From the IMG/VR virus record IMGVR_UViG_3300005468_000016, positions 28,076 to 92,075 of that record: a DNA stretch of 64,000 bases; one strand, 5' to 3'. The stretch comes from a virus. How positions within the stretch are numbered: the stretch's first letter is position 1; every line of letters starts with the position of its first letter. Made by a program: the position numbers and the translations under genes. Shown piece by piece: positions 3-57,696 of the stretch. The notes beneath the pieces are model-generated. The model was not told the origin of the DNA, did no database searches, and saw only the letters and a list, made by a program, of their open reading frames with translations.

Positions 3-209
3 GAAGCCATCCGCGCTGATCTGCGACAGAAGGGCTGGACATTGCGCAGCGACGGATATTGGTCGGCGAACGAGACCGGCCCACTGGATGCGCGCGGCAT
101 GATTTGGCAGGACCGAATGATCGACCTCGATCCTGAGAACTCGCGCCGAATCCTGGCTGCCATCGAGGCCAGAACCCCGCCGCGGGTTCGCTGGCCCACA
201 TCTTGCTGA
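3..209 (+). CDS. Unknown protein, C-terminal fragment
   Basis: The frame is open from the left edge to a TGA at 207-209 and encodes the last 68 residues of a protein whose start lies outside the window. The peptide has mixed charge and ends in WPTSC. I see no family signature. It lies upstream of the portal gene, where Mu-like phages carry terminase genes, but nothing here resembles the terminase nuclease domain. The portal promoter overlaps its stop codon. Confidence 0.5.
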   Translation, partial: EAIRADLRQKGWTLRSDGYWSANETGPLDARGMIWQDRMIDLDPENSRRILAAIEARTPPRVRWPTSC

Positions 210-234
210 CATCTCCCCGCCGCCCGTGTAGCCT
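206..234 (+). promoter_or_regulatory. Promoter for portal gene, leaderless type
   Basis: CTGACA at 206-211 and TAGCCT at 229-234 are separated by exactly 17 bases, and the portal ATG follows exactly 6 bases after the -10 box. No Shine-Dalgarno sequence precedes the ATG, so the transcript would start at or next to the start codon. The same geometry occurs at 33594, 34188, 34308 and 57661. Confidence 0.5.
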
Positions 235-24755: not shown

Positions 24756-26023
24756 CCGCGACGCTCCAACAACTTCTCACGGTCAATACGCCGCCGCAGA
24801 ACGCCCAGTTTATGGTGGCGAAGTTGGCAGGCATCGGGTTCCCGAACACCACGAACTGGACGACGGGAACCGTTCCGCTCACGTTGCTGCAAACGATCGG
24901 CTTCCCGCTTACCGACATCCAATCGACGCGGTTTAAGTACGCCGCCGCAAGCCTGCTCGACTATGCCGCCATCCCCGAAGATCAGGGCGGACCGGGGCGC
25001 GACTGGCTCGAACTCCACGCCGATCAGGTCTTTAACAACCAAGCATTCCCGGCGGTTGCGACCGAGATTGACGAAACCTTTACGGACGCCGCGAACCAAG
25101 GCCCCTTCACGATTGGCCCCGGGGGTGCGGGCGTCGCCGTGGGCCAGGGCCAGCCGATCTACCGCACCACGAACAGCGCCAACGTCGTGCTGCCACTCGG
25201 GGGCAGTGTCGTTATTCGGGTCCGCGCGCCCTCGCCAGGGACCGCGTTCAATGTCCCCGATGGCGCGCTTACCTTCTTTGCGGCGGGACGGCTTCCGGGT
25301 GTCACCGTCAGCAACATCGGCCCCGGTTCAATCAAGGTCGCAGGGACCGATGCAGAAGCCAACTCGGCGCTGGTTCAGCGGTGCCGCACCAAGTGGGCGC
25401 TGCTCTCGACGGGGAGTCCGGTTCCGGCCTATATCAATTGGGCGCTCTATGCGGGCCAGGGTCAGGTCGGCAAGGTCAAGCCGCGCGTCAATCTCTTCCT
25501 GAATGATCCGGGGCGCGTGGATCTTTACTTGGCCAGTCCCGCGGGTGGTGGTGTGGCGCCGGCTGTGGTGGATCGGGTGCAGGAGTTTATCGCCCCGCTT
25601 CCGGTGGCGGCCGAACGAACGGGCGCGCGGATTCCGGAGACCGCAAAGTGCGTGGTGTCGAGCGCCAACAGCAAGACGATCTTTATCAATGGCACGATCT
25701 TGGTCTACCCGGAGTTTAATAACTCCACGTTCAAGGCGCAGATCGCCTCCGACATCGCGGCCTACCAGGGCGCGTTCCCGATTGGTGGGGTGCTCGACAA
25801 TCCCCCGACCATGTTCGGGCATGTCCCCTATACCCGAGTCCTCCAGCTCCTGCTCAACCGCAGCGGGGTGGCGCTAGAACCCGCACAAGAGGCATTGAGC
25901 AACCTCACGATCAGCCCAGACAATGTGCTGTTTTTTAAGATTAACCTGCTGCTTGATCCGATCGATTCGGTCACGTTCGACATCAGCGGCCTGCAACTGG
26001 CCTCTGTGACAAGGCCGACGTAA
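24752..26023 (+). CDS. Baseplate J-like wedge protein, Mu gp47-like
   Basis: A 423-residue protein with a GTG start overlapping the wedge gene. It shows the baseplate J family order: an N-terminal helical segment, 'GTAFNVPDGALTFF' after a beta domain, then 'GTDAEANSALVQRCRTKW' (family: G.D.E....R.R), and a C-terminal 'VVDRVQEFIAPLPVAAERTG' module. It forms the wedge that links the hub to the fibre network. Confidence 0.85.
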   Translation: MTATLQQLLTVNTPPQNAQFMVAKLAGIGFPNTTNWTTGTVPLTLLQTIGFPLTDIQSTRFKYAAASLLDYAAIPEDQGGPGRDWLELHADQVFNNQAFPAVATEIDETFTDAANQGPFTIGPGGAGVAVGQGQPIYRTTNSANVVLPLGGSVVIRVRAPSPGTAFNVPDGALTFFAAGRLPGVTVSNIGPGSIKVAGTDAEANSALVQRCRTKWALLSTGSPVPAYINWALYAGQGQVGKVKPRVNLFLNDPGRVDLYLASPAGGGVAPAVVDRVQEFIAPLPVAAERTGARIPETAKCVVSSANSKTIFINGTILVYPEFNNSTFKAQIASDIAAYQGAFPIGGVLDNPPTMFGHVPYTRVLQLLLNRSGVALEPAQEALSNLTISPDNVLFFKINLLLDPIDSVTFDISGLQLASVTRPT

Positions 26024-26940
26024 TGGCGATTAACCCGAACCTTCAGAGCGTCACGACCTACGAGGAGGTCATCCCGCAGGTCTTTGCGCCGCCGTGGCTC
26101 TCGGGACCCTACGGCACGCTCTGGCATCGGGGCATCGGGCAGTTCTTCGACGACGAATGGACGCTTGGGCGCGACGCGGCGCTCGTCGGGTTTCCGCAAT
26201 ACACGCCGGGCGACGCGCTGATTTCTCTGGGCGCCGAACGGATGCTAGAGCGGGCCAATCCCACGCTGAACCTGCCCGGCGAAACAGAGGCCGAGTATCG
26301 ACTGCGGCTCAAAAATGTCTGGGGCGAGTGGGGTGCTCCGCTTCCTCCCGGTAGTGCCCCACTCGCCGCGGACGCTAGCGATGCGGTCCAACACTTCTGC
26401 TTGCCGATGGGGATCTGGGAAGCGGCGGGGTCGGCGGCGATCCATCTGCCCGACCCGTTCACGGTACCCATCGCGGGCATCCCCACGATTCGCCCCTCCA
26501 CCATGAAGGGCTGGCCGGCGTGGTTGGGGCTTACCGATACCGCGGTCTACCGTCAGCATGAGTGGGCCTTCCCGCCGTTCCTGGTGTCGCCCTACTTCTT
26601 CGCCTGGGAGCATGAGTGGTCCACCTTCTGGGTCATCATCAAGGAACCCCACCCGTTCCAGTTGATCTACTGGGGTGCGCCCGGTCTGTTTTGGGGCACG
26701 CCACCGGGACCTGGTTGTCCGACTTGGGGCACCACGGCCACGGTTGAAGAGGTGGAACTGATTAAGCGCTTGGTCGTGACCTTTAAGAGCGGCCACTCCA
26801 CCTGTGCGGGCATCGTGCTCTTTATCGGTGTCGGTGCCATCTTCTGGGGCGTGGGCGTCTGGGGCACTGGCACTTGGGGTGCGGGAGGCGGTGGCACGAC
26901 GGTGATTTGGCCGGTCGGAGAACCCCACTGGTATCAATAA
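26023..26940 (+). CDS. Baseplate/tail protein, P2 gpI or Mu gp48-like
   Basis: A 305-residue protein starting in a single-base overlap with the J-like gene. The first part contains 'PGETEAEYRLRLKNVWGEWG', as in gpI-type proteins. Near the end, 'ELIKRLVVTFKSGHSTCAGI' matches the family's closing helix and strand. An aromatic Gly/Trp-rich segment ends the protein. It usually anchors tail fibres to the baseplate. Confidence 0.72.
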   Translation: MAINPNLQSVTTYEEVIPQVFAPPWLSGPYGTLWHRGIGQFFDDEWTLGRDAALVGFPQYTPGDALISLGAERMLERANPTLNLPGETEAEYRLRLKNVWGEWGAPLPPGSAPLAADASDAVQHFCLPMGIWEAAGSAAIHLPDPFTVPIAGIPTIRPSTMKGWPAWLGLTDTAVYRQHEWAFPPFLVSPYFFAWEHEWSTFWVIIKEPHPFQLIYWGAPGLFWGTPPGPGCPTWGTTATVEEVELIKRLVVTFKSGHSTCAGIVLFIGVGAIFWGVGVWGTGTWGAGGGGTTVIWPVGEPHWYQ

Positions 26941-30319: not shown

Positions 30320-30435
30320 GATGCTGCTTCTGTCGGCGTCCATCCGGTGGACATCTTGCGCATCACTGCGCGCAGGATTTTTCTTCCCCGCTCCATTCCT
30401 GCATTGTCACTGAATGTTACAGGCACCACATATTG

Positions 30436-30459
30436 GCGATTATGCACTTGACAAAGCAG
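30436..30459 (+). repeat. Left terminal inverted repeat, 24 bases
   Basis: Begins GGCGATTATGCACTTGAC and is identical, in inverted orientation, to 33619-33642. It carries TTGACA at 30449-30454, but no -10 box follows at 17 bases here, unlike in the right copy. Confidence 0.8.
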
Positions 30460-30496
30460 ACCCTGCGCCCCGTCGGTGGCTCGACGGCGCGACAGG

Positions 30497-30688
30497 CTAG
30501 GATTCCTTTTTCTGGGACTTCGCGGGCTTGGGAGTCTGCGCGGCTTCATCCGCAACGCGCGCAGGAGTCCGTAGCGCGATCTTGAGGGATTCCCGAAAGC
30601 GGGCTTCTACTTCCGCTTCTTCTTCCGGAGTGAGTGCTTGCGGCGCTTCCGGTGTCTGCTGGGGCTTGTCTGCCTTGGACTTAGCCAT
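30497..30688 (-). CDS. Small charged hypothetical protein
   Basis: A 63-residue product from the ATG at 30688: a disordered K/P/Q-rich N-terminus, a helical middle (TPEEEAEVEARFRESLKIAL) and a K/P-rich tail. It lies inside the inverted-repeat unit, downstream of the 30697-31116 gene. The middle is reminiscent of short accessory proteins found near transposases, but no assignment is possible. Confidence 0.5.
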   Translation of the reverse strand: MAKSKADKPQQTPEAPQALTPEEEAEVEARFRESLKIALRTPARVADEAAQTPKPAKSQKKES

Positions 30689-30696
30689 AGCGTCAC

Positions 30697-31116
30697 CTAT
30701 ACCACATCGGCGCTTCGCCTGCCCCACCACAGCCAACCCGGAAAGCGCGAGACATCCACCGCTGCCATGCGCCCGACGAAGTCTGCGAAGGGTTCGCGGA
30801 TCAGGTAGACATCGACCTCGTCGAAATCCCAAGCCGCAGCGATGGCCCGGCAGAGGTTGATAGCCAGCGTCCACCGCTCGGCATTCGTCAGCGCCTGCAC
30901 ATCCACCCCGAGCACGCGATCATCACGCAACGCGGCGCCGTAGCCGTGCCACATGACGTTACCGATGAACGCGCGGGCGATGGCAAGCACGGGTTCGTAG
31001 GGCTTGAGGTCCGTCTGACCGTCCAGGCTGTCGAGGATGGCCTTTAACAGCCGTTCGACGACGGCGAAGCGGCAGGGGTTAGACCACGTCGAGAAGTCCA
31101 GCGTCGGTGGGTTCAT
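30697..31116 (-). CDS. Hypothetical protein
   Basis: A 139-residue product with its ATG at 31116 after AAAGGAG. It is mostly helical with many tryptophans (WSNPCRFAVVERLLKAIL, RWTLAINLCRAIAAAWDFDE). GC-rich codon use matches the phage rather than the adjoining AT-rich cargo gene. No family recognised. Confidence 0.6.
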   Translation of the reverse strand: MNPPTLDFSTWSNPCRFAVVERLLKAILDSLDGQTDLKPYEPVLAIARAFIGNVMWHGYGAALRDDRVLGVDVQALTNAERWTLAINLCRAIAAAWDFDEVDVYLIREPFADFVGRMAAVDVSRFPGWLWWGRRSADVV

Positions 31117-31243
31117 GGGCTTGCTCCTTTGCCTGTCCATGGTCCGCTTGCTGCCTGTTTCTGTCACGTTTTTTATTTCAGATATACATATCGCGTCGCT
31201 ATTTATAAGTTTCTGTACTGTAATTTATTGCCGTGTTATGTTG

Positions 31244-31271
31244 TTGACCGGATACCCGAAAAACCTACGCT
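31244..31271 (+). promoter_or_regulatory. Possible leaderless promoter for XRE gene
   Basis: TTGACC at 31244-31249, a 16-base spacer and TACGCT at 31266-31271, then 6 bases to the GTG at 31278. It sits in an AT-rich divergent region (31117-31277) that also holds two direct TTTCTGT repeats about 56 bases apart. Confidence 0.35.
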
Positions 31272-31277
31272 GCGCCC

Positions 31278-31532
31278 GTGCCTCGCCCCCCTGCCAAGCG
31301 GCCTCAACAGGTAGCTCGCCCGAGTCTCGGGCCAGGGCAGGCTGACCGTCTGCGTCGCACACGGGAAACAAAAGGCTACAGTTTGCGCGACCTCGCTGCC
31401 GCCGCTGGTGTGACGACGGGCGCGATTCAGGCCATTGAGGCGGGGCGCAAGGGCAAGACAAGCTGTGAGGTCATGGCCTCGCTTGCGGATGCTCTCGGGG
31501 TTCCCCGAGGGTGGTTGGCGTTTGGTGGATAG
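31278..31532 (+). CDS. XRE-family helix-turn-helix regulator
   Basis: An 84-residue DNA-binding protein. After a basic N-terminus of about 22 residues, the Cro/CI-type domain reads LRRTRETKGYSLRDLAAAAG, then VTTGAIQAIEAGRKGK, then MASLADALGVPRGWLA, with the five-helix spacing intact. It starts with GTG and has no Shine-Dalgarno sequence, consistent with leaderless expression. It precedes the 31545 cargo gene by 12 bases and may control it. Confidence 0.78.
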   Translation: MPRPPAKRPQQVARPSLGPGQADRLRRTRETKGYSLRDLAAAAGVTTGAIQAIEAGRKGKTSCEVMASLADALGVPRGWLAFGG

Positions 31533-31544
31533 GAAAAGTGAAAA

Positions 31545-32582
31545 ATGGGAAAAACCGGTCAGGTTGCCGCTTCTTCATTGCCAAGTCAAGATCCAAATGC
31601 TAAGAGAGACGCCATGAGTAGCATGACGGTGTGCATCGCCTATGATGGCGAGGGATTGCGCGATGGAGCAACGCCGAACTCCATGAATGTGCGTGATTTA
31701 GCGCCAGCTCTTATTGCCTTTGCCGATATGTTTGAAGAATGCAATAAAGTGCTCCACGGCAACGAGGCGCCTCCTGTCAATGTTAAAATAATCCCAGATT
31801 TCCAACCTGGCTCTTTCGAGGTATATCTCAATATTGCGCAAGGGCCAATTAGAGACTTGCTGATGTGGTTTTCTGACGGACAGCCAGCAGGTCTTGCCAA
31901 TTTGTTCGATATTCTGCTTGGGATTACCACCACTGGTACTTCTACTGCCATTGGCGTTTTTGCGGCCATTAAGTGGATTAAAGGACGAAGGGTTCAGAAG
32001 ACCGAGTTATTGAGCGATGGAAATATGCAGATAGTTGTTGAGGGGGAGAATTTGATCGTTAGACGCGATGTTGCCACCGTCCTAAGCGATGCGCGGGTGC
32101 GCCAAGCGATTATGAACACACTGTTGCCATTAAGAAGAGATGATATCGATACGTTTGAAATACGCCTCGAACCCAAGAAAAAAAGGAAAGTACCATTACC
32201 GCCAATTGAGATTGTTCGCAAATCAGAATTGCTCATGTTTGAGCCCCCGCCCCCGGTCCCGGTAGCTCCGTCGCAGGTTGTTCAAAATACATATGTTCAG
32301 TCGTTTACGATTATTTCTCCAGTCTTCAAGGATGGCAACAAATGGCAAGTTTCAGATGGGACTAATAGCATTAAAGTAACCATTGATGATCCAGAGTTTA
32401 TGGAAAGAGTAAATAGCCGTGAAATAAATTTTGCAAAAGAGGATATAATCATATGCTCAGTTCAACAAGAACAGACATCGAGTCCGGACGGACTAAAAAC
32501 TACGTATTCAATTAAGAAGGTGCTTGAACACAAGCGCATACCCCGTCAGGTCGTTTTGCCATTCCCGATTGACCGGAAGTAG
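31545..32582 (+). CDS. Membrane-associated cargo protein of unknown function
   Basis: A 345-residue product, or 322 residues if it starts at the ATG at 31614, which has a comparable ribosome site. The N-terminal domain (LRDGATPNSMNVRDLAPALI, IPDFQPGSFEVYLNI) is followed by a hydrophobic helix or pair (LFDILLGITTTGTSTAIGVF) and a beta-rich C-terminal part. The layout recalls uncharacterised proteins common on mobile elements. Its codon use and base composition are clearly AT-richer than those of the neighbours, indicating a different origin. No enzymatic motif seen. Confidence 0.65.
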   Translation: MGKTGQVAASSLPSQDPNAKRDAMSSMTVCIAYDGEGLRDGATPNSMNVRDLAPALIAFADMFEECNKVLHGNEAPPVNVKIIPDFQPGSFEVYLNIAQGPIRDLLMWFSDGQPAGLANLFDILLGITTTGTSTAIGVFAAIKWIKGRRVQKTELLSDGNMQIVVEGENLIVRRDVATVLSDARVRQAIMNTLLPLRRDDIDTFEIRLEPKKKRKVPLPPIEIVRKSELLMFEPPPPVPVAPSQVVQNTYVQSFTIISPVFKDGNKWQVSDGTNSIKVTIDDPEFMERVNSREINFAKEDIIICSVQQEQTSSPDGLKTTYSIKKVLEHKRIPRQVVLPFPIDRK

Positions 32583-32607
32583 TTGCGCGCGTTACTTCCA
32601 CAGCGCA

Positions 32608-33594
32608 TCAAACCACAGCCCCCGCCCTGGCCTTCCCCTTCATGGGCTTGAGGGTCAGCCGCCGCCCTTCCATCTTGCCCAGTCCGCCCACGGTACGCTC
32701 GCCATCCGTGACCTTGCGGGTGTTGTACTTGTAGTCAAGTTCGGCCATATAGAGGCTCAGGTGCTTGCGGCCGACGTGATGGTGGGTGCCGTCCATGCTG
32801 CGCTTGCTGTTGCCGAAGAACCCTTCGGCGGTGTTCGTGGTCGCCAAGCGGCCAGTTTCGAGGTCGTGCCGCGCGTACTCTTCTTCCGAGTGGTTGACGG
32901 TCAGGTGCGACTTGAAGCGCTTGCCCGGTTCGTCGTAGATGGGGCTCTCGTCGGTGTTCAGGTGCGCCTTCTTCGATACGTGCGTCACCAGAACAGCGTT
33001 TACTTCGGCGCTGCTCACGCGATCGGCGCCGATGACTTGCGAGCGGACGTTGCCACCGCGCTCTACCACGCTCACCACGGCGGTCTTGTTGCCGACGTAG
33101 CCACGGCCCTTGCCGCGAGCCTTGCCGCCCACGTACATCTCGTCGCACTCCACTTCGCCCTTCAGCTTGGCCGGTCCCAGCTCGGCCATGGTGAAGCGGA
33201 TGCGGTGGCACATGTGCCATGCGCTGCGGTAGCTGCCGATCTCCAACATGCGCTGAATCTGGAGGGCGCTCACCTGCGTTTTGGCAGAGGACAGGAGGTA
33301 GTAGGCAATCAGCCACTTGTTGAGCGGGATATGGGAGTCCTCGAAAATCGTTCCCACGGTCACGCTGAACTGCTTGCGGCAAGTCGGGATGTTGCACTGG
33401 TACAGACCTGCACGGTGCGCCTTCCCTTCCAGTTTGGTCGCATCGTTGATCGCGCCGCACTGCGCGCACACGACACCATCCGGCCAGCGGATCTCCTCTA
33501 GGAGTGCGCGGGCGGCTTCCTCGGTAGAGAACCGCTTCATGAGCGTGATCAGGGTGAGGTCAGCGGCGGCGGGGTGGGTTTTCGTGCTCGACAT
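32608..33594 (-). CDS. IS1595-family transposase
   Basis: A 328-residue DDE transposase of the ISXO2 type. Residues about 45-75 hold the N-terminal zinc ribbon (CAQCG, then YQCNIPTCRKQFSVTVGTIF). The catalytic domain shows 'EVECDEMYVGGK', 'LNTDESPIYDEPGK' with 'LTVNHSEEEYAR', and 'NTAEGFFGNSKRSMDGTHHH' with the final acidic residue, so it looks intact. It starts 6 bases after a -10 box and has no Shine-Dalgarno sequence. It mobilises the surrounding inverted-repeat unit. Confidence 0.9.
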   Translation of the reverse strand: MSSTKTHPAAADLTLITLMKRFSTEEAARALLEEIRWPDGVVCAQCGAINDATKLEGKAHRAGLYQCNIPTCRKQFSVTVGTIFEDSHIPLNKWLIAYYLLSSAKTQVSALQIQRMLEIGSYRSAWHMCHRIRFTMAELGPAKLKGEVECDEMYVGGKARGKGRGYVGNKTAVVSVVERGGNVRSQVIGADRVSSAEVNAVLVTHVSKKAHLNTDESPIYDEPGKRFKSHLTVNHSEEEYARHDLETGRLATTNTAEGFFGNSKRSMDGTHHHVGRKHLSLYMAELDYKYNTRKVTDGERTVGGLGKMEGRRLTLKPMKGKARAGAVV

Positions 33595-33596
33595 AC

Positions 33597-33932
33597 CTAC
33601 AATCTAGGCCCGTCGGTGTGCTTTGTCAAGTGCATAATCGCCCTAGGTTTTGGTTGGCCAGTCACCCGCACGAGGCGGTGCTTGCTGGGGCTTCCCAGGG
33701 CAATGACATCGCCCGCCCTTACACCGTCGTCGAACTGCGGGTAACACATCGTGACGATATTCGCGACACGGTCAACCCATCCATCGTCGGGGTGCGCGGC
33801 CTTCACGTCATTAGCCCTGAGCATCGTCCGCCAAGCGTCGAGCTTGGCTTGCTCGGCCAAACAGATATCGCGCCACGACTGGACGAATCGTTGCTCGCCG
33901 GAACAGAGGCCGATCATCTCTTTAGGTTCCAT
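33597..33932 (-). CDS. Hypothetical protein with IS-derived C-terminus
   Basis: A 111-residue product starting at 33932, just before the end of the XRE gene (11-base overlap). Residues 1-95 look like a folded phage protein (GLCSGEQRFVQSWRDICLAE; GDVIALGSPSKHRLVRVTG). The final 15 or so residues are read from the inverted repeat of the IS, so the original C-terminus was replaced. Joining the flanks without the element gives a short alternative end (about nine codons). Confidence 0.55.
   Translation of the reverse strand: MEPKEMIGLCSGEQRFVQSWRDICLAEQAKLDAWRTMLRANDVKAAHPDDGWVDRVANIVTMCYPQFDDGVRAGDVIALGSPSKHRLVRVTGQPKPRAIMHLTKHTDGPRL
33601..33629 (-). promoter_or_regulatory. Leaderless promoter of transposase
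   Basis: On the minus strand TTGACA (33624-33629), 17 bases, TAGATT (33601-33606), then 6 bases to the ATG at 33594. The -35 box lies within the right inverted repeat. Confidence 0.6.
33619..33642 (-). repeat. Right terminal inverted repeat, 24 bases
   Basis: Perfect inverted copy of 30436-30459. It contains the -35 box used by the transposase promoter. Confidence 0.8.
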
Positions 33933-34188
33933 GAGTCTCCCCCGCCGCCAGCCAGCCGACGGTGCATTTCAGCGCCTTGGCCATCGTCACCACTGCATCG
34001 AGCGGCGGTAGATCGTTACCGATCTCCCACTTTGCGACTTGCGACTGAGCCACAAGGGCCACGCTGGCTAGTTGTTGCTGTGTAAAGTCTGCCTTGATTC
34101 TCGCCTGATAGAGACGAGCGGCGAAGTCTTTGGCGAGTTTCTCACGCCCTCTTGACTGCCCATTTTTCCGACCCGTTGGCCTGCCCAT
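33922..34188 (-). CDS. XRE-family repressor, probable phage CI/Cro
   Basis: An 88-residue DNA-binding protein. A basic N-terminal tail of about 20 residues precedes a complete Cro/CI helix-turn-helix domain (LYQARIKADFTQQQLASVAL, VAQSQVAKWEIGNDLPP, AVVTMAKALKC). It is divergent from the 34308 operon with back-to-back promoters, so it is the best candidate for the lysogeny repressor. It starts 6 bases after its -10 box, predicting a leaderless mRNA. Confidence 0.8.
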   Translation of the reverse strand: MGRPTGRKNGQSRGREKLAKDFAARLYQARIKADFTQQQLASVALVAQSQVAKWEIGNDLPPLDAVVTMAKALKCTVGWLAAGETHGT

Positions 34189-34194
34189 GGGAAC

Positions 34195-34223
34195 AATCTA
34201 TGCCTAGCCGCTTCTTTTGGCAA
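34195..34223 (-). promoter_or_regulatory. Leaderless promoter of XRE repressor
   Basis: Minus strand TTGCCA (34218-34223), 17 bases, TAGATT (34195-34200), then 6 bases to the ATG at 34188. It diverges from the 34273 promoter across an AT-rich 119-base gap. Confidence 0.6.
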
Positions 34224-34272
34224 GAATTAAAAATTATCTTCGTCGCTGAGTGTCGATTTTATTATTTTATCA

Positions 34273-34301
34273 TTGACACATCGCTCGCCCCGTTGCATCT
34301 T
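34273..34301 (+). promoter_or_regulatory. Leaderless promoter of rightward operon
   Basis: TTGACA at 34273-34278, 17 bases, CATCTT at 34296-34301, then 6 bases to the ATG at 34308. No Shine-Dalgarno sequence lies before that ATG. Confidence 0.6.
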
Positions 34302-34307
34302 CTGTCC

Positions 34308-34598
34308 ATGATCGCGACGCAAACCCAGACCACACAAACCGTAAAACGCCCCGGCCGCTGGTTCTTCTGCGCGATCGTCAAAGAGAGCGACACCCTGAAG
34401 CGCGGTGGGACCTCTGCCGCTCGCCGTCTCGCCGATGGCCGCTACGAAGTCCACAGCGCGGGCAAGAAATCGATACTGTCCAGCCAAGACGCAGCGCTTC
34501 ACCTCAAGTCCGAGCGGGCGCGGGGCGAAGTGATGTACCTGAACGCTACCGAGGTCGCGGATGTTGATGGCGGGCGGTGGCAGGTGGGGAGTAACTAG
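34308..34598 (+). CDS. First gene of rightward accessory operon
   Basis: A 96-residue product from the ATG at 34308. It begins with a Q/T-rich segment, then GRWFFCAIVKES and a basic, serine-rich middle (LKRGGTSAARRLADGRYEVH). It is placed opposite the XRE repressor where phages often encode a Cro or anti-repressor, but no helix-turn-helix is evident. A frame extending upstream to 34152 would read through the promoter and is not favoured. Confidence 0.6.
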   Translation: MIATQTQTTQTVKRPGRWFFCAIVKESDTLKRGGTSAARRLADGRYEVHSAGKKSILSSQDAALHLKSERARGEVMYLNATEVADVDGGRWQVGSN

Positions 34599-43233: not shown

Positions 43234-43446
43234 ATGCAGTCGCTCAGGGGGGAGATTCTGCGTGCGCAAAAGGCCATGGACTTGCTCCTGCGCGATCATC
43301 CGTCCAGCGACTATGAAAAGTTCGTGTTCGCCCAGAAGACGCGGGCGATTGCGAACCGGCTGATCGGGGCTATCGACGAATCAACGGCGCGGCTGTTTGA
43401 GCGGGCGGGGCGCGGGATATCGGGCGAGCACCGGAAGGTGGAGTAG
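43234..43446 (+). CDS. Small helical protein
   Basis: A 70-residue helical, basic product (QSLRGEILRAQKAMDLLLRD). The ATG is preceded, at exactly 6 bases, by TATCAT (43222-43227), but a good -35 box is missing. Its final codons GAG TAG face the GAG TAG of the opposing gene across 3 bases, forming a small inverted repeat. Confidence 0.55.
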   Translation: MQSLRGEILRAQKAMDLLLRDHPSSDYEKFVFAQKTRAIANRLIGAIDESTARLFERAGRGISGEHRKVE

Positions 43447-57118: not shown

Positions 57119-57445
57119 TTAGGCTGATTGCGCGGCGGTCTCTGCGATCTTCGCGTTGAACCGAGCGTAGTGTGACCACTTGCGGTGAATCGTCAGGTAC
57201 TCAGCAGAGAACCAGTAGCACACCATCTTGCCAGCCAAGAGGCCCTGACCGTGGACGCGAACCATGACCTTGCGGCCAGTCCTGGACACCTGGTGAACCA
57301 CACACGCCTTGAACTCGTAAAAGGCGCTGCTTACGGTGTCGCCGACTTCGATCGTCTGCGCGGGCTTCTGGGAATCAGCGGAGAACAGCGCGGCGATTTC
57401 GTCTGCGGCTACCTGGGCTTCGGTCTGGTTCGTGATGGCGTCCAT
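57119..57445 (-). CDS. Hypothetical protein
   Basis: A 108-residue product starting after GCAGGAGCG. An acidic helix (AQVAADEIAALFSADSQKPA) precedes a beta-rich basic middle (CVVHQVSRTGRKVMVRVHGQ) and 'KWSHYARFNAKIAETAA'. Probably a small nucleic-acid-related early protein. Not recognised. Confidence 0.58.
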   Translation of the reverse strand: MDAITNQTEAQVAADEIAALFSADSQKPAQTIEVGDTVSSAFYEFKACVVHQVSRTGRKVMVRVHGQGLLAGKMVCYWFSAEYLTIHRKWSHYARFNAKIAETAAQSA

Positions 57446-57667: not shown

Positions 57668-57696
57668 AAGCTAATTCAGGCCCAGACACAAGTCAA
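57668..57696 (-). promoter_or_regulatory. Leaderless promoter of leftward early operon
   Basis: Minus strand TTGACT (57691-57696), 17 bases, TAGCTT (57668-57673), then 6 bases to the ATG at 57661. The surrounding 55 bases are AT-rich. It should drive the run of genes from 57661 leftwards to about 54673. Confidence 0.6.

Follow-up and report, generated by a model that had tools for sequence, protein, structure and literature searches.

Leaderless genes are well documented in bacteria with G+C-rich genomes. In high-G+C phyla, leaderless genes are marked by a TANNNT box that precedes the start by about 12 bp, and more than 20% of genes are leaderless in Actinobacteria and Deinococcus-Thermus (Zheng et al. 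2011, PMC3160421); a 2025 paper likewise describes leaderless genes as a common mode in Deinococcus-Thermus (PMC12340547). Regulators of mobile elements also use such transcripts. The prophage regulator PaaR2 was found to be leaderless by 5' RACE and N-terminal sequencing (PMC8630535), and cvkR and cas12k form a divergent pair in which both genes are leaderless (PMC9938897).

The window analyzed here, 64,000 nucleotides in all, comprises bases 28076-92075 of the IMG/VR record IMGVR_UViG_3300005468_000016, which is 92,075 bp long. The record, from an unclassified soil phage, carries tailed-phage genes (terminase, Mu-type portal, head, and tail sheath), and a DNA-level search of a phage-record collection gave no near match to it. 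The terminase has its best relatives in Thermobifida and Streptomyces phages (about 35% identity), and the tail sheath matches those of Myxococcus, Meiothermus, and Thermus phages (about 30% identity). These two proteins point to different phage groups, and a tail sheath query against five transposon-carrying genomes found no host. Actinobacteria and Deinococcus-Thermus, two groups among these matches, have abundant leaderless genes (PMC3160421), and we infer a high-G+C host with many leaderless genes of the TANNNT-N6-ATG type. Elsewhere in the record, the terminase large subunit (L003:10997-12757, record 24996-26756) contains a Hint/intein-like domain (Pfam PT-HINT, residues 418-540), and a leftward cluster (L002:6013-12344, record numbering identical) includes a DnaB helicase, a tRNA nucleotidyltransferase-like protein, and an RlaP-type nucleotidyltransferase.

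We consider it quite likely that this phage has a divergent leaderless control region and that the same geometry recurs at other phage promoters, the promoter at 33594 being of transposon origin. The 119 bp between 34188 and 34308 would constitute the control region, in which two sigma-70-type promoters lie back to back (see the table). Judging from the distance between -10 box and ATG, transcription from each promoter would begin at the A of the ATG; the mRNA of the repressor would then be leaderless, as probably would that of the rightward operon, with ribosomes recognizing the 5'-terminal AUG, not a Shine-Dalgarno site. The portal and 57661 promoters share this geometry fully or nearly so, as expected in a phage of a high-G+C host, if that is the host type. 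The promoter at 33594 belongs to an unrelated IS1595-type transposon, inserted just downstream of the repressor.

Features of the divergent region, the neighboring transposon, and the promoters compared with it (window positions)
Feature	Position	Strand	Details
Portal-gene promoter	206..234	+	CTGACA-N17-TAGCCT-N6-ATG (ATG 241)
IS1595-type transposon, 3.2 kb, with passenger genes	30435..33642		Transposase domains and inverted repeats
Small XRE gene within the transposon	31244..31532	+	GTG 31278; TTGACC-N16-TACGCT-N6-GTG
IS1595-family transposase	32608..33594	-	DDE_Tnp_IS1595, E=3.7e-30; zinc ribbon, E=2.2e-10
phrog_9621 gene, downstream of the repressor	33597..33932	-	PHROG match
Transposase promoter	33601..33629	-	-35 TTGACA 33629-33624, 17-bp spacer, -10 TAGATT 33606-33601, 6 bases, ATG 33594
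XRE/HTH_3 repressor-like gene, 88 aa	33922..34188	-	Pfam HTH_3, E=3.5e-10; PHROG transcriptional repressor families
Leftward (repressor) promoter	34195..34223	-	-35 TTGCCA 34223-34218, 17-bp spacer, -10 TAGATT 34200-34195, 6 bases, ATG 34188
AT-rich stretch, 27% G+C	34224..34272		Separates the two -35 boxes; among the few AT islands of the phage
Rightward promoter	34273..34301	+	-35 TTGACA 34273-34278, 17-bp spacer, -10 CATCTT 34296-34301 (weak, outside the TANNNT pattern), 6 bases, ATG 34308
First rightward-operon gene, 96 aa	34308..34598	+	No family match
57661 promoter	57668..57696	-	TTGACT-N17-TAGCTT-N6-ATG (ATG 57661); head of leftward genes

All five starts (34188, 34308, 33594, 57661, and 241) have the N17 spacer and 6 bases to the ATG. 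The exact spacing claimed for the back-to-back promoters in the original prediction is thus present, but the -10 box at 34308 departs from TANNNT. The leaderless signature, in which the first T of TANNNT precedes the start by about 12 bp, is correspondingly found at the other four sites and not at 34308; the upstream sequences of the leaderless-candidate starts have no Shine-Dalgarno site. The strict pattern TTGNCA-N17-TANNNT-N6-ATG occurs twice in 92 kb, at 34188 and 33594. With up to one mismatch to TTGACA, four sites in the record have the -35 box, N17, and TANNNT; an ATG stands at gap 6 in all four, and no such N17 site in the whole record has another gap. The N16 site at 31278 precedes a GTG start, likewise at gap 6. 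Around the 180 gene starts predicted by a simple purpose-made caller, TANNNT is found at offset 6 in four cases and at none of the offsets 2-5 and 7-11, and a Shine-Dalgarno-like 4-mer is present at 98 of these 180 genes. The four include 43234, the start of a 70-aa gene (43234-43446) with TGATATCAT, an extended -10 in which TG precedes the box, 6 bases before its ATG and with no -35 box; this is another leaderless candidate. That the design is repeated at operon heads does not hold as a rule, since many other genes of the record, some of them heading gene runs, have Shine-Dalgarno sites and lack such a promoter.

At the repressor, ATG 34188 is the sole possible start codon in the first 40 codons by a start scan, the -10 TAGATT holds an in-frame TAG 12 bases ahead of the ATG, and the GTTCCC between box and ATG contains no Shine-Dalgarno site. 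Whatever the transcript, Shine-Dalgarno-led initiation at this start therefore appears unlikely. Since the repressor can start at only one codon and lacks a Shine-Dalgarno site, leaderless translation is its best reading, and a leaderless mRNA, predicted to begin on the A of the ATG, is well supported by sequence. On the rightward side, the 96 codons from 34308 onward have a strong coding signal (+18.9), whereas the 36 codons between 34200 and 34307 have a weak one (+2.1), so that 34308 is a likelier start than 34200; a leaderless mRNA is plausible for this gene, with its weak -10. Searches of viral contigs or phage records for relatives of the repressor, the 34308 product, and a protein farther along the rightward operon gave none that carries the region.

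Downstream of the repressor, the coding signal of the phrog_9621 gene vanishes at its 3' end (about 33600-33644), where the transposon end is read. Because the signal is lost where the gene enters the inverted repeat, the insertion probably shortened this gene. The terminal inverted repeats, GGCGATTATGCACTTGACA, lie at 30435-30453 and 33624-33642 and are identical at 19 of 19 positions; the inner end of the repeat is itself the transposase -35 TTGACA. With these repeats around it, 33594 is ruled out as a phage gene. The passengers comprise a 345-aa phrog_3243 protein, the small XRE protein, and two leftward genes; two passenger genes, at 31278 and 31545, have codon usage unlike that of the phage. 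An 8-bp target duplication is absent from the window copy (3 of 8 bases match), whereas exact 8-bp duplications stand at the corresponding ends in relatives L004, L009, L015, and L019. A target duplication is an insertion mark that fades and is not inherent to the element, and the window copy may be old or rearranged. We assigned the element to the IS1595 family from its transposase and inverted repeats, not from target duplication.

How well is the transposase promoter conserved? In five relatives (L004, L005, L015, L018, and L019), whose transposases are 57-61% identical, TTGACA, 16 or 17 bases, TANNNT, 6 bases, and ATG follow one another in 5/5. In these elements, the distances from inverted repeat to -10 and on to ATG are maintained although the sequence between has diverged. 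Most of the relatives were selected through the inverted repeat, which deprives the -35 of independent weight; the -10 and the gap do count as independent evidence. Among more distant relatives, the spacing is unchanged in L011, the gap is 9 bases in L013, TANNNT is missing in L012, and a Shine-Dalgarno leader is present in L008 and L009. A search for the inverted repeat in about 780 genomes gave only two carriers, both already found. Two of the viral-contig transposons of this type (L004:5905-8706 and L005:6031-8697) have large passengers that by eye appear DNA methyltransferase-like (restriction-modification-like). The open-access literature searched gave no paper that deals with leaderless IS1595 transposases or with a subgroup whose inverted repeat provides the -35 box. 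As a tentative idea, in this IS1595 subgroup the inverted repeat may give the -35, and the -10 may make transcription begin right at the start codon of the transposase. A transposase without a Shine-Dalgarno site would be poorly translated from outside transcripts, and leaderlessness could in this way insulate it from read-through at the insertion site. The conserved spacing thus yields a simple, testable idea for transposase expression independent of insertion site, which is the more useful by-product of this analysis.

The portal promoter can be compared with that of a related phage whose portal is 61% identical. There, the promoter hexamers are identical at 12 of 12 positions and the spacer has diverged, but 8 bases separate the -10 from the portal ATG, compared with 6 in the record. 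The portal promoter is conserved, with a predicted leader of 0 to about 2 bases; the exact leaderless spacing at this gene is not. The 57661 promoter sits in a rare AT-rich island, and its ATG opens only 15 codons, ending at TGA. Past this TGA, the frame resumes with a strong coding signal to 57467 (57661-57467, minus strand), for which a leader peptide, a reading error, and a broken gene are all candidates; a Shine-Dalgarno site precedes the gene at 57445, farther along. A generalized use of leaderless mRNAs for phage control genes, as first proposed, is not supported by these loci: 33594 starts a transposon's transposase, 241 a structural gene (the portal), and 57661 a 15-codon frame.

It could be argued that the eye has singled out a chance arrangement, as the sites are only a handful and several hexamers are off consensus. 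However, a comparison with shuffled sequence, originally proposed as a check, was run with one -35 mismatch allowed: 300 local dinucleotide shuffles of the 92-kb record gave a mean of 0.04 N17 sites with a gap-6 ATG and a maximum of 1, against the four observed. The spacing is genuine and greatly exceeds chance expectation. Together with the conserved portal promoter and the transposase promoter kept in all five closest relatives examined, this leaves chance a negligible probability. It is also very improbable, if slightly less so, that the repressor promoter was brought by the IS1595-type element as a transposon-derived control module. The two starts at 34188 and 33594 do have TAGATTGT----ATG in common (TAGATTGTTCCCATG and TAGATTGTAGGTATG), and the element is only 280 bp from the repressor gene. 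Nevertheless, the inverted-repeat sequence is absent near 34188, with matches at 33642 and 30435 only; the TAG--T boxes at 241 and 57661 are far from the element; and the codon usage of the repressor fits the phage.

A more serious alternative, though still an unlikely one in our judgment, is that the repressor is leaderless and the rightward gene is not, with 34308 expressed from another start or an activator-dependent promoter and its spacing coincidental. The -10 CATCTT agrees with the consensus at just 3 of 6 bases, and for PaaR2/YdaS of the Escherichia coli prophage CP-933P leaderlessness was reported for the repressor side (PMC8630535). On the other hand, the rightward promoter has a perfect TTGACA at the right distance. 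Among 33 TTGACA sites in the record, only two (34273 and 33629) are followed, after 17 bases, by a hexamer with A at its second and T at its sixth position, and in each case an ATG stands at gap 6. We retain the reading in which both mRNAs would be leaderless, the original proposal being well supported for the repressor by its single start, in-frame TAG, missing Shine-Dalgarno site, and the offset-6 enrichment, and staying plausible for 34308.

Whether this divergent region is a lysogeny switch is a separate question. An HTH repressor-like gene diverges from the rightward operon at 34308, whose genes may be lytic. We found no match to tyrosine or serine integrase, rve transposase, or ParA (PF00589, PF00239, PF00665, and PF13614) in the 92-kb record, which is possibly incomplete, and the best operator dyad between the promoters is no better than those in shuffles. 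The lysogeny switch initially suggested here is thus unproven; both repressor function and lysogeny are inferred.

The same geometry extends to other viruses. For TTGNCA-N17-TAGATT in viral contigs, 56 of the 120 matches listed at gap 6 have an ATG that opens a frame of 50 aa or more, compared with 18 of the 120 listed at gap 11 (Fisher P = 1.5e-7; 52/100 and 17/109 after deduplication); these are two samples of 120 matches listed each, not totals. From these samples, the gap-6 geometry is common in viruses. A simple, unvalidated HTH regular expression gave no matches in the viral-contig sample, and a PHROG scan took its place. By that scan, the assignable genes in the gap-6 matches listed are mostly primases, helicases, exonucleases, and polymerases, with two members in a regulator family. 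Since the assigned genes are mostly replication genes, a special tie to lysogeny genes is not supported.

Altogether, the promoter spacing in the record is real, the leaderless design that it predicts is of an already known kind, and back-to-back leaderless control genes are known as well. What the record adds is a phage whose recognizable sigma-70-like promoters adjoin the start codon directly. In such phages, starts can be misassigned by gene callers that look for Shine-Dalgarno sites; the simple caller used here chose 34200, not 34308.

The record shares with the leaderless genes of Actinobacteria and Deinococcus-Thermus the TANNNT-N6-ATG arrangement, the lack of a Shine-Dalgarno site, and a G+C content above 60% (PMC3160421; PMC12340547), but it also has a recognizable -35 at each site. 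Lambda cI transcribed from PRM and PaaR2 of the E. coli O157 cryptic prophage CP-933P are similar in having a divergent HTH regulator with a leaderless mRNA, and the intergenic regions are short in both cases, 97 bp for paaR2-ydaS (PMC8630535) versus 119 bp here. In contrast to these, the opposite gene in the record is also leaderless in geometry, and no Cro/YdaS homolog, integrase, or operators were recognized in the record. The cvkR/cas12k pair of the Anabaena CAST transposon is likewise divergent with both genes leaderless, with 82 nt between start codons (PMC9938897); however, it involves a MerR-type regulator and a CRISPR-associated transposon, and its genes are unrelated to those of the record. 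Finally, the element at 30435-33642 resembles other IS1595-family transposons in its transposase domains, inverted repeats, passengers, and the 8-bp duplications of its relatives, whereas its subgroup differs in taking the -35 from the inverted repeat and placing the start codon 6 bases past the -10.
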